This document shows positions 22,376-34,816 of a DNA stretch of 46,985 nt, in pieces. The notes beneath the pieces were generated by a model that worked only from the letters and a program-made list of their open reading frames with translations, had not been told where the DNA came from and did no database searches. The position numbers and the translations under genes are program-made. The DNA is from an uncultured Fidelibacterota bacterium (GTDB lineage: Bacteria; Fidelibacterota; UBA8477; JABMPR01), in the NCBI GenBank assembly GCA_937888365.1, contig CALBFA010000106.1:1-46985 (forward strand), given 5' to 3'. Every line of letters starts with the position of its first letter. Within the stretch, counting starts at the first letter, position 1.

Positions 22376-23812
22376 CTAATTAAGAACAAGCCCAGCCATA
22401 AACTCTTTTGCGCCAAGATTTTCCGCATCAAAAACCATTGCTTTGATAACTTTCTGTTCATCTTCTGACAATAATCCGTTTGCAAGTGCCTCGAATTTGT
22501 CGTCTAAATCCTCGAGGGTCATAGGCTCGCGTGGGTCGCCTTTGGGATATTCCATATATTCCTCAAACTGCTTCCCGTCTTTTGTTGTGATGACAACACG
22601 CGATGGCTGTTTCGCCGGAAACATTTTCTCAAATTCGATTGATGGCTCACCTTTGATGCGGTCAATCACCTCGAAAATTCGAGGGTCTTTCAATTTTTCA
22701 TCCGTAAAGGATTGTGTCGTAATTTTCTTATCCACGATGGCTGCTGCAAGGCAATACGGCAACGAATGATCTGCTGTCTCGCGGGATGCAGGGCGATATT
22801 TCGTTGGGTCGAAAAGAATATCGTAGGCTTGAGCAAATGCCGTCACTTTCACTTCTTCGACATCACTATAATTGAGGTCGTTTTTCCGCATCAAGTTCAA
22901 TGTGCAGGAAATATGCGTATGGGTCAAAGCTTCTGTCGGAAAAGCTTTCATACCGCATTCCATAATTTTATAACTATCGCCTAAGCCATCCACCAAAGCA
23001 GAAACATCCCAACTCCAGTTCGATGCGCCGTCGCGACCCATCATTTCTGTTGGATTCACGTTGCCGTCTTTGGCATCCCATCCGATAAAGGCATCCATAA
23101 AACCTTCTTTGCCCTCAAAAACTTTTTCGGTGCCAGAATAACCTTTTTGCGCTAAAAGTGCCGCAAAAACGCCTGATTGAACCGCCATAGGATCAACTGT
23201 ATTTTTCATCATTGTCAAAACGCCGGCGGTTGGGCAACCGATTGTATGATTATGAGATCCATTGATACCGATAGCGTTAACCATTTGATCAACGGTGAGA
23301 TTCAAGAGTTTCCCAGCAACAATGGGTGAAACGAATTGCGTAAGTGTTGCGTGATGCCACTTGCGTTCGCGAACGCCAGGTTTTGCAAAGAGACACAAAC
23401 GTTGCTCAAATTCGTAAGCTAACACAATCGCCACGATGACGTCTTTCATGGAGGTATCCATCATCTCGCCAACAGATAATGCAGCAGGAATTAAATCCGA
23501 TGGATGAGACGGGTCTTCTTTCCAATAAATATCATTAAAATCGAGGGCGCGAATCATAAGGGAATTCACTAAAGTCGCATTAACGGCGGGCATTTTTTGT
23601 CCAAAACCCATGACCGTCGCTTCATCTTTTCCGCCAAAATCTTTATAAATATCATACATAATATTGACGTCTTTGGTGCGATATCCGCCAAATGCACAGG
23701 CAATTGAATCATATAGGTAGCGTTTTACTTCATAGACAACGTCTTCAGGTAAATCTTCATATTTTAAACCGACTGAAAATTCAGCGATCTGTCTTGCGAT
23801 TGATTTTTTCAA
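22376..23812 (-). CDS. MmgE/PrpD family protein (2-methylcitrate dehydratase-like)
   Basis: 478 residues, normal for the family. It starts at a TTG with a strong AGGAGAAAAAT upstream. LYDSIACAFGGY, ALDFNDIYWKEDPSHPSDLIPAAL and HHATLTQFVSPIVAGKLL are family hallmarks. Members include 2-methylcitrate dehydratase, cis-aconitate decarboxylase and iminodisuccinate epimerase. Here it follows an isocitrate/isopropylmalate-type dehydrogenase and lies downstream of a homoaconitase and citrate lyase, so dehydration of a tricarboxylate is likely; the exact substrate is open. Confidence 0.88.
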   Translation of the reverse strand: MKKSIARQIAEFSVGLKYEDLPEDVVYEVKRYLYDSIACAFGGYRTKDVNIMYDIYKDFGGKDEATVMGFGQKMPAVNATLVNSLMIRALDFNDIYWKEDPSHPSDLIPAALSVGEMMDTSMKDVIVAIVLAYEFEQRLCLFAKPGVRERKWHHATLTQFVSPIVAGKLLNLTVDQMVNAIGINGSHNHTIGCPTAGVLTMMKNTVDPMAVQSGVFAALLAQKGYSGTEKVFEGKEGFMDAFIGWDAKDGNVNPTEMMGRDGASNWSWDVSALVDGLGDSYKIMECGMKAFPTEALTHTHISCTLNLMRKNDLNYSDVEEVKVTAFAQAYDILFDPTKYRPASRETADHSLPYCLAAAIVDKKITTQSFTDEKLKDPRIFEVIDRIKGEPSIEFEKMFPAKQPSRVVITTKDGKQFEEYMEYPKGDPREPMTLEDLDDKFEALANGLLSEDEQKVIKAMVFDAENLGAKEFMAGLVLN

Positions 23813-23831: not shown

Positions 23832-23892
23832 AACCACGAATTTCACCAATTTCTCGAATTCTTTTTTCGTGTAATTTGTGTAATTAGTAGTT
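23832..23892. repeat. Cargo-less imperfect hairpin of CACNNATT repeats
   Basis: Arms 23832-23858 and 23866-23892 are inverted copies matching at 21 of 27 positions with a 7-nt loop. Each arm is made of CACNNATTN-like units (CACGAATTT, CACCAATTT, CTCGAATT). It fills the spacer between the PrpD and dehydrogenase genes. The same unit pattern borders the GxxExxY gene at 34.4-34.8 kb, so this looks like an empty member of that family; it could also act as an intercistronic RNA hairpin. Confidence 0.75.
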
Positions 23893-23893
23893 A

Positions 23894-25090
23894 TCAAAGT
23901 TTTTTAATTATTGCATCAGCCATTTCTTTTGTAGAAGCAGCACCTTTTTCAACGACATCGGCTCTTCCTGCCATTTTTGCCATGTCATAGGTTTTAACGT
24001 TGCCTTCGGCGACGACTTCTGCAACTGCTTTTCGAATCTTCTTCGCGATGGTTGATTCATCAATAAAATCAAGCATCATGCATGCCGATTCCACCATTGC
24101 AATCGGATTGACAATAGAAACTGGATAATCGGCATATTTAGGGGCAGAACCGTGTGTTGGCTCGAAAACAGCAACGCCACTTTCTGGATTATACTGAGCG
24201 GAGCATGCGAAACCCAGTCCGCCGATAAGGCCCGCAAATCCATCGGATACGATGTCTCCAAACATATTCCCCGCGACGATGACACCGTAGTTTTCAGGAT
24301 TTTTGGTTAGCCACATCATTTGCGCATCAATATTCGTGTTCCAGAGTTCGATATGAGGGAAATCTGCTTTTTGCATCTGTTGCGCCATTTTATACATCAT
24401 GCCTGATGTTTCGCGAATAACATTCGGCTTTTCGCACACCGTTACGGATTTATAGCCGTATTTATCAGCATATTCAAAAGCGGCTCTTAAGATACGTTCG
24501 GTTGCCTTTTTTGTAAAAATTCGGGTTGAAATGGAAAGTTCGTCAACAGGTGTTTCTCCAAAATTTGATACAAATTTTGGATGCGTCATAAAGGCAGCAT
24601 GAACCTGAGGACTTGGATTTGACCATTCGACACCGCCATATAAACCTTCCGTATTTTGTCGAAATATTGCCACGTCAACTTTCGGTTCTTCTATTGTTTC
24701 GCCTTGACCTCTTCGAATAAAGTTGAGTGGATTTCCCGTGTAAGTTTTGCAGGGACGCAAACAAATGTCGAGATTAAAATGCTGACGAAGTCCCACGATT
24801 GGGCTGGAATAAACCAATCCTTTTTCTTTTAATTCAGGCAATAATTCGTCAAAGGCTTCATCTTTTGGTTTTGATGTGATGGCACCAAAAAGGCCAATTT
24901 TATGTTTTTCGAGTAAATCAATTGTGCGTTGAGGTAATGGATTTCCCTCTTTGCACCAAAATTTCCAACCAATATCGCCTTCGACATAGTCTGCTTCAAA
25001 ACCAGCTGCACCCAATACGCGAATTGTTTCGTCTAGAACGGTTTTGCCAATGCCATCTCCAGGCATGCTTATGATTGTTCTTTTAGCCAT
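23894..25090 (-). CDS. Isocitrate/isopropylmalate dehydrogenase family enzyme
   Basis: 398 residues. MPGDGIGKTVLDETIRVL at the N-terminus; VDVAIFRQNTEGLYGGVEW holds the substrate-binding loop. The metal-binding segment is VIVAGNMFGDIVSDGFAGLIGG and FEPTHGSAPKYAD forms the NAD(P)-binding region. The enzyme oxidatively decarboxylates a 2-hydroxy acid such as isocitrate, isopropylmalate or homoisocitrate. With a LYS4-like homoaconitase upstream and PrpD downstream, homoisocitrate or another alkyl-isocitrate is as likely as isocitrate. Confidence 0.9.
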   Translation of the reverse strand: MAKRTIISMPGDGIGKTVLDETIRVLGAAGFEADYVEGDIGWKFWCKEGNPLPQRTIDLLEKHKIGLFGAITSKPKDEAFDELLPELKEKGLVYSSPIVGLRQHFNLDICLRPCKTYTGNPLNFIRRGQGETIEEPKVDVAIFRQNTEGLYGGVEWSNPSPQVHAAFMTHPKFVSNFGETPVDELSISTRIFTKKATERILRAAFEYADKYGYKSVTVCEKPNVIRETSGMMYKMAQQMQKADFPHIELWNTNIDAQMMWLTKNPENYGVIVAGNMFGDIVSDGFAGLIGGLGFACSAQYNPESGVAVFEPTHGSAPKYADYPVSIVNPIAMVESACMMLDFIDESTIAKKIRKAVAEVVAEGNVKTYDMAKMAGRADVVEKGAASTKEMADAIIKKL

Positions 25091-33258: not shown

Positions 33259-33278
33259 TTTTTTCCTTTCACAACGAA

Positions 33279-33778
33279 AACACCGAATAAACGAATTTTG
33301 TAGCTGTGATTTATTGTTATATTTTCAATTGATTACTGATTATTCTTAGATACGAATCGCTTAAATTGAAGAGGTATTTTACCAAAATTAATTAGATAGC
33401 CGACTTCGTGTTCTGTTGCCTTTAAATAATTAATGAGTTGAGCCTGATGAATTTTACTCACCTCATTAACTGCCTTTAATTCTAAAATAATTTTATCCTC
33501 TATTACTAAATCAGCATAATATTCACCAACAATTTGATTGTGAAAAACCACTTTGATTTTCTTTTGTTTCTCAACGCTGAAGTCTTTTTCAATTAAAGCA
33601 ATTTCAAGTGAATTTTCATAAATCTTTTCTAAAAATCTAACTCCTAGTTCTTTTTGAACAGAAAAAGCTGTATCAATAATTACATCGGACAAGCTTTTAT
33701 GTATTATTTCAACCATTCTTTACTTTCAAAATATAATATTAAACAATGTTTTTTTCGTCTTTTCGTTTATTCGTTGTT
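33279..33778. mobile_element. Inverted-repeat-bounded GxxExxY unit 1
   Basis: A 17-bp arm at 33279-33295 (AACACCGAATAAACGAA) is repeated inverted at 33762-33778 with one mismatch (16/17), enclosing a single GxxExxY gene. The unit sits between the homoaconitase and HD genes, spacing apart genes that otherwise look like one operon. No transposase is present, so mobility is inferred. Confidence 0.6.
33333..33716 (-). CDS. GxxExxY family PD-(D/E)XK nuclease-like protein (copy 1)
   Basis: 127 residues. The signature region reads GVRFLEKIYENSL, with the first Gly of GxxExxY replaced by Arg but Glu and Tyr kept. A PD-(D/E)XK-like core follows: YYADLVIEDKIILELKAV gives the Asp and ELK. The C-terminus HQAQLINYLKATEHEVGYLINFG is typical of the family (TIGR04256). 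The biochemical role of this family is not established. It reads in operon direction between metabolic genes and lies inside a 16/17-bp inverted repeat. Confidence 0.88.
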   Translation of the reverse strand: MVEIIHKSLSDVIIDTAFSVQKELGVRFLEKIYENSLEIALIEKDFSVEKQKKIKVVFHNQIVGEYYADLVIEDKIILELKAVNEVSKIHQAQLINYLKATEHEVGYLINFGKIPLQFKRFVSKNNQ

Positions 33779-34329: not shown

Positions 34330-34358
34330 AACCACTTATTACACGAATTGTACTAATT
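34330..34358 (+). repeat. Isolated CACNNATT repeat arm
   Basis: Begins AACCACTTATTACACGAATT and continues with a third degenerate unit. It lies just outside the left inverted repeat of GxxExxY unit 2 and matches the arm at 23832-23858. It may be a leftover arm of another copy. Confidence 0.5.
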
Positions 34359-34377
34359 ATTTAAAATCAAAAAATAT

Positions 34378-34816
34378 TTAACCACAGATTACACCGATTC
34401 CACGGATTTATAAAACAAATCGTTCATATTTTAATGATTTTTCTCCATAATTTATCAATAATCCAACCTTAAGATTAGTTACTTTTAAATAATTTATGAT
34501 TTGGGCACGTTCAACATCGCCCAGTTGTTTTATTGCTTTAAACTCTAGAACAACTTTATCCGCCACAACCAAATCACAGTAGAAATCTTTAATCACCTGA
34601 TCTCGGTACGTTATTGGGTATTTCTTTTGAGCTTCATATCCAACGCCCTGATATTTTAACTCTATCTTCAAAGCTTCTTCATAAACGGACTCAACAAAGC
34701 CATTACCAAGTCTTTTATGCACTTCCATAGCACAGCCAATAATGTTATAGGTTACATCTTTATCAATGAATTTTGATGACATTAAATTTTCTTCTATCTG
34801 TGTAATCTGTGGTTAA
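34378..34816. mobile_element. Inverted-repeat-bounded GxxExxY unit 2
   Basis: TTAACCACAGATTACAC at 34378-34394 has an exact 17/17 inverted copy at 34800-34816, enclosing one GxxExxY gene with 13 bp on one side and 17 bp on the other. The left arm continues into further CACNNATT units (CACCGATTC, CACGGATTT). It is inserted between the HD gene and citF; no transposase. Confidence 0.7.
34408..34782 (-). CDS. GxxExxY family PD-(D/E)XK nuclease-like protein (copy 2)
   Basis: 124 residues with the canonical signature GNGFVESVYEEAL, then DFYCDLVVADKVVLEFKAI (Asp and EFK of the nuclease-like core) and ERAQIINYLKVTNLKVGLLINYG. By eye it shares well under half its residues with copy 1, so the two are not a recent tandem duplication. 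It fills nearly the whole space between perfect 17-bp inverted repeats. Confidence 0.92.
   Translation of the reverse strand: MSSKFIDKDVTYNIIGCAMEVHKRLGNGFVESVYEEALKIELKYQGVGYEAQKKYPITYRDQVIKDFYCDLVVADKVVLEFKAIKQLGDVERAQIINYLKVTNLKVGLLINYGEKSLKYERFVL

Follow-up and report, generated by a model that had tools for sequence, protein, structure and literature searches.

Between an MmgE/PrpD-like gene and an isocitrate/homoisocitrate dehydrogenase-like (IDH) gene of an uncultured Fidelibacterota bacterium lies a short hairpin with no gene in it. How did it come to be there? An earlier note suggested that it could be a non-autonomous copy, of the kind that MITEs or REPINs are to their enzymes; it may also be what is left of a larger element. 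The window, by which we mean the whole stretch of DNA analysed (46,985 nucleotides), contains two GxxExxY genes, one of which (unit 2) is bordered by repeats of the same kind as the hairpin (Table 1).

Structure of the hairpin and distribution of its arms

The hairpin occupies 61 bp of the 81-bp spacer between the two co-directional genes, with its right arm beginning 1 bp past the IDH stop codon and the PrpD start lying 20 nt beyond the hairpin. Both arms follow one plan, AACC or AACT and then three 9-nt units, CACNNATTN (CRCNRATTN). On re-reading the sequence, the 27-nt arm, the 21/27 inverted partner and the 7-nt loop described earlier were exact in every respect, and the hairpin was, as had been claimed, devoid of a gene. 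Folded as RNA, the spacer gave -12.8 kcal/mol (z -2.5 versus shuffles), with single mismatches falling on the two N positions of every unit. A general repeat search returned no match for the hairpin because the longest exact stretches are too short.

Table 1. Coordinates of the hairpin, its neighbouring genes and the GxxExxY units in the window
Feature	Position	Strand	Remarks
MmgE/PrpD-like gene	22376-23812	-	Downstream of hairpin; syntenic partner for orthology
Left arm	23832-23858	+	AACCACGAATTTCACCAATTTCTCGAA; AACC and three 9-nt units (CACGAATTT CACCAATTT CTCGAA..)
Loop	23859-23865		7 nt; no ORF or start-codon relic
Right arm	23866-23892	-	Minus strand 23892->23866 reads AACTACTAATTACACAAATTACACGAA; AACT and three 9-nt units (TACTAATTA CACAAATTA CACGAA..)
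IDH-like gene	23894-25090	-	Upstream of hairpin
Second GxxExxY gene	33333-33716	-	Different, AT-rich arms of ACGAATAAACGAAAAGACGAAA type, roughly 33270-33296 and 33749-33776
Solo arm	34330-34359	+	AACCACTTATTACACGAATTGTACTAATTA
GxxExxY unit 2, arm	34380-34409	+	AACCACAGATTACACCGATTCCACGGATTT
GxxExxY unit 2, gene	34408-34782	-	ATT-arm clade; TIGR04256, PF13366; PD-(D/E)XK residues intact
GxxExxY unit 2, opposite arm	34785-34814	-	AACCACAGATTACACAGATAG...

Arm-like units (score of at least 18/21) were present in the 47-kb window only at the hairpin and around 34330-34409, with a weaker arm at 34785-34814; in Markov-1 simulated windows, 0.03 arm units were expected per strand and inverted pairs numbered 0 in 200 simulations. 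With one mismatch allowed, CACNNATTNCACNNATT occurred eight times in the window versus an expected 0.54. Whole-genome counts, which rest on pattern searches, gave seven copies of the exact doublet CACNNATTNCACNNATT in the genome (0 for a reversed-pattern control) and more than 200 in 20 same-family genomes (one control match), and 49 arms were detected when 225 kb were scanned in full (control, 0). The matches in the window agree with the earlier observation that the hairpin is built of the same units as the borders of GxxExxY unit 2 and the lone arm at 34330; in addition, AACCAC(NNATTNCAC) ends are common to the hairpin and unit 2 (34380-34814) of the same genome. Contig G000:C72 (L002 1498-2120) also contains two tandem, near-identical and gene-less copies of about 358 bp; an ATT arm and a CTCTGTGG (RAG) arm lie at opposite sides of each copy and enclose other palindromes.

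Contents of the orthologous spacer in relatives

Two arm types, with ATT units and with RAG units, are distinguished here. Gene order from PrpD upward is conserved across the family, and among eight same-family genomes the spacer contained an intact GxxExxY gene between arms in six, a truncated one in one and a single arm in one. Specifically, in G004, G005, G009 and G010, ATT arms enclose a GxxExxY gene of the ATT clade; G007 and G008 carry a third GxxExxY type, of the RAG clade, between CGCAGAG-type arms and within the remains of an older ATT hairpin; G012 resembles these two except that the gene is truncated; G016 retains one arm together with another palindrome, the right arm being absent; and the window has arms only. 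The spacer has been taken by at least three unrelated GxxExxY lineages. For example, G009 and G010 share 96% identity in PrpD, whereas the GxxExxY proteins in their spacers share only 57%, indicating that the site endures and its contents turn over. Left arms starting with AACT or AGCT, not AACC, were found in all five shells without an ATT gene (G000, G007, G008, G012 and G016) but not in the four that have such a gene, a small count that suggests a shared old shell.

In genomes of the same order, the IDH-PrpD spacer holds an S23-like four-helix gene between other repeats, and in more distant genomes it holds a VapBC pair or is a bare 40-48 bp. The apparent VapB-VapC toxin-antitoxin pairs, seen in distant members of the phylum (L025, L035 and L037), mark this spacer as a repeated landing site.

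Neighbouring spacers preserve intermediate states. In the spacer before a 664-aa gene, the element is intact in G012 and frameshifted in G010, and in G008 there is an empty hairpin that shares the right arm and keeps a relic of the start codon (CACAGAAGCATGAG). Following the 36546 gene, the spacer of G004 contains a complete GxxExxY gene and that of G008 an internally deleted one. The window hairpin, which itself retains no gene trace, fits the end of this series from intact through broken to empty, and the homology of the site points to a probable deletion in place, which is simpler than insertion because the homologous spacer is gene-bearing in relatives. Judging from these sequence comparisons, we consider it probable, at roughly two chances in three, that the hairpin is a GxxExxY element emptied of its gene and not a hairpin that moved in alone. 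Neither a precise empty/filled pair at high identity nor a target-site duplication was found at the window locus, where relatives are at most 89% identical.

Other small genes were found in comparable settings. By eye, S23-like four-helix-bundle genes were recognised at L141 (10360-10831 and 15428-15907), L147 (6957-7390), L017, L022 and L026, with their own inverted short repeats (ATAGAAAATAGAAA, AATTGAAAATTG and AGTAGTCAGTAGTGAGTAG) and in the same spacers in relatives; they are a parallel armed-gene element. A DUF559/Vsr-like small endonuclease gene, also recognised by eye, lies between GGAGGG/CCCCTC-type repeats at L142 13326-13864 (G004), in the spacer that is the site of GxxExxY unit 2 in the window and measures 15 bp in G016.

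The predicted GxxExxY nuclease and its arms

GxxExxY proteins form a common, multi-copy family of unknown function. Those of the window scored 145.1 and 124.8 bits for TIGR04256, the curated cut-off of which is 35, and the Pfam match is PDDEXK_3 (PF13366); PADLOC returned a weak match only, to the second protein. A sequence search of solved structures revealed no homologue. The best solved-structure Foldseek matches to an AlphaFold model (pLDDT 90) were SSO0001 (a Cas4 nuclease), MGME1, lambda exonuclease and AddAB, and in the ATT clade residues H24, D72, E82-x-K84 and Q96xxxY100 do not vary, the RAG clade having equivalent residues. The modelled protein folds like Cas4/RecB nucleases and has the H...D...ExK...QxxxY residues, so it is a predicted PD-(D/E)XK nuclease.

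For 100 distinct GxxExxY genes, drawn from many phyla, the two flanks proved to be arms of inverted short repeats: the local score of the upstream flank against the reverse complement of the downstream flank had a median of 33, versus 18 for control ORFs (p 1.6e-32). The arms were typed by regular expression, except in one row, L060, where the type of the innermost arms was entered by hand. The protein tree has two deep clades, one with 27 ATT, 16 other and no RAG arms and the other with 47 RAG, seven other and three ATT arms. Among the 77 typed genes the ATT/RAG label changes only twice on the tree, against about 26 times in shuffles. Since arm sequence tracks the branch of the nuclease family across many phyla, nuclease and arms probably work together.

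The same match was evident between genomes. Across 245 genomes of the phylum, ATT arms were present in 15/15 with an ATT-core nuclease versus 37/230, and RAG arms likewise accompany the RAG clade, although such genome-level associations partly count the gene's own flanking arms; six far ATT-core genomes each have at least two further arms. Outside the window's order, and with kinship ignored as in all these phylum comparisons, ATT arms occurred with the ATT-core nuclease in 6/6 versus 21/81 (p 6e-4) and RAG arms with the RAG clade in 27/48 versus 7/39 (p 2e-4), whereas the crossed pairings were not significant (p 0.74 and 0.76); arm type and nuclease clade thus show a double dissociation across genomes. 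The link to GxxExxY that had been proposed for the hairpin is borne out, as 46/52 genomes with arms encode GxxExxY versus 61/193 without arms. At a finer level, the arm dinucleotide agreed between genes and hairpins of one genome no better than in permutations (p 0.32, seven genomes).

Three observations concern individual arm types. The AT-rich ACGAATAAACGAAAAGACGAAA arms of the second GxxExxY gene of the window constitute a third type. RAG-clade proteins of Flavobacterium (L295, L296 and L297) have GCAGATTTNGGCAGATTTAAGCAGATT arms, the one clear arm-type switch on the tree, which may be useful for mapping specificity residues. Genome G105 has fourteen AACCACAGAG RAG arms, several in close inverted pairs (C26:22577/22697 and C73:21085/21209), and its GxxExxY matches are only very weak.

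GxxExxY might be only the cargo of repeats generated by replication slippage, by hairpin-prone sequences or by an unrelated transposase. This architecture is shared with genes other than GxxExxY: S23-like and DUF559-like small genes lie between other short inverted repeats in the same spacers; however, mere carriage would not explain why arm type tracks nuclease clade across phyla, and each gene family apparently has its own repeat type, so that we regard this explanation as unlikely.

Arm-only hairpins in other genomes

A scan of GTDB representatives identified at least 120 arm-only hairpin stretches in many phyla, the hosts including Flavobacterium, Prevotella, Anaerolineales, Nitrospinia, Planctomycetota, Aminicenantes, Cyanobacteria and others. 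At the consensus arm end, AACC precedes three CRCNRATTN units. In Flavobacterium, Laspinema and Aminicenantes, the hairpins have sharp AACC...GGTT ends and unrelated flanks; no constant duplication was seen in the flanks of the arm-only hairpins compared. The hairpins are intergenic, with 26/127 inside long ORFs versus 83% of random positions, and GxxExxY was encoded in 17/17 sampled host genomes. For example, JALVVL, an Anaerolineales MAG with a 2.2-Mb genome, has at least 18 hairpins and one GxxExxY gene. At its loci L173-L230, the hairpins are embedded in longer composite repeats that include ACACCGATTGG arms and CTTGGCGTCC arrays.

Such dispersal is what would be expected if a GxxExxY nuclease encoded elsewhere mobilised gene-less copies in trans, and in other phyla, where arm-only hairpins stand beside a single gene as in JALVVL, the term non-autonomous copy used in the earlier note finds support. 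For the window hairpin the term is possible but less likely than an emptied element. In most relatives the elements in the homologous spacer contain a gene, an internally deleted shell is present in a nearby spacer of G008, and perfect, short and well-formed empty hairpins are rare in the window's phylum (1/245 genomes), the window genome having one; because of this rarity, the amplifying behaviour is a property of other lineages and not of the window genome. Arrival as a gene-less, MITE- or REPIN-like insertion is therefore improbable here, slightly more so than the carriage of GxxExxY as cargo.

That the hairpin is an ordinary RNA structure of the IDH-PrpD operon (a stabiliser, a processing site or a translational control) is the least probable of these explanations and a poor candidate altogether: its position and folding energy and the arm directly before the PrpD ribosome-binding site in 8/9 family genomes speak for it, but the arms are 370-400 bp apart in relatives with a gene between them, in G016 the right arm is missing and another palindrome is present, and no stem covariation was seen in the 127 hairpins, whose arms match in unit type but not at linker or purine positions. 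A search for intrinsic terminators (a GC-rich stem followed by a T run) found none, and no Rfam family exceeded its gathering score. The earlier note had expected such a structure to be conserved at this locus in all relatives and absent elsewhere; the outcome was mixed, as every same-family relative examined has indeed kept arms at the spacer, but arms are far from absent elsewhere, and those at other sites in the 20 family genomes (more than 200 doublets) usually enclose a gene.

Proposed element and comparison with known systems

With the hairpin read as an emptied shell, the parent element would consist of two inverted arms, each with about three 9-nt units, that enclose one small gene encoding a predicted Cas4/RecB-like PD-(D/E)XK nuclease. 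A nuclease-plus-cognate-arms element is well supported. The co-divergence of arms and proteins suggests that the nuclease recognises the arms, and its fold and the turnover at the spacer suggest that it may cleave them and confer mobility. The nuclease would bind or cut its cognate arms, probably in single-stranded form or after their extrusion as hairpins; such action would either spread the element or let new copies settle at existing arms. Once the gene is deleted, the two arms would collapse to a hairpin, which may persist passively. More tentatively, and at somewhat less than even odds, these elements may represent an undescribed, phylum-spanning class of mobile elements, in which clade-specific iterated arms are recognised by a minimal Cas4/RecB-like nuclease that lacks any known recombinase or transposase domain and carries both itself and arm-only hairpins into intergenic spacers, the window hairpin being one decayed copy.

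The clade-by-clade match to a non-coding repeat gives GxxExxY a concrete, testable substrate, suggests a system of the REPIN kind with another enzyme at its core, and would account for a large proportion of the short CACAGATTACACAGATT and CACAGAGAACGCAGAG repeats seen in draft genomes. In addition, the intact, broken and empty elements at orthologous sites form a natural series for the study of gain and loss. In the open-licence literature, we found no paper on GxxExxY-linked inverted arms or empty shells, and nothing relevant on REPIN-like nucleases or the repeat sequences.

The TIGR04256 (GxxExxY) and PF13366 (PDDEXK_3) family models, which both window genes (33333 and 34408) match well above the cut-offs, cover the protein only. 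The MITEs are likewise short and gene-less with terminal inverted repeats, and the hairpin shares its ends with GxxExxY unit 2 in the same genome; unlike the MITEs of DNA transposons, however, it has no transposase with matching ends. No target-site duplication was detected among the relatives compared, which are at most 89% identical in this region. The intervening sequences of 23S rRNA with an S23 ORF, treated as selfish (PMC4990558), also have a small ORF inside an imperfect inverted repeat, but the elements described here lie in protein-gene spacers, their ORF encodes a predicted nuclease, and the window hairpin lacks an ORF. A close parallel is REPIN/REP with RAYT (TnpA-REP), in which small intergenic hairpins occur singly, in pairs or in clusters and the enzyme gene is flanked by the same repeats (PMC3116915, PMC8266576); here, too, dispersed intergenic inverted pairs also flank the enzyme gene, and in some genomes the repeats outnumber the enzyme. 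The REP sequence is a single palindrome tagged with GTAG or CGTC (PMC3733652), whereas the arms described here have AACC and three direct 9-nt units per side and no such tag, and the RAYT enzyme is a Y1 HUH transposase, whereas PDDEXK_3 and the Foldseek matches point to a Cas4/RecB-like PD-(D/E)XK nuclease in its place.
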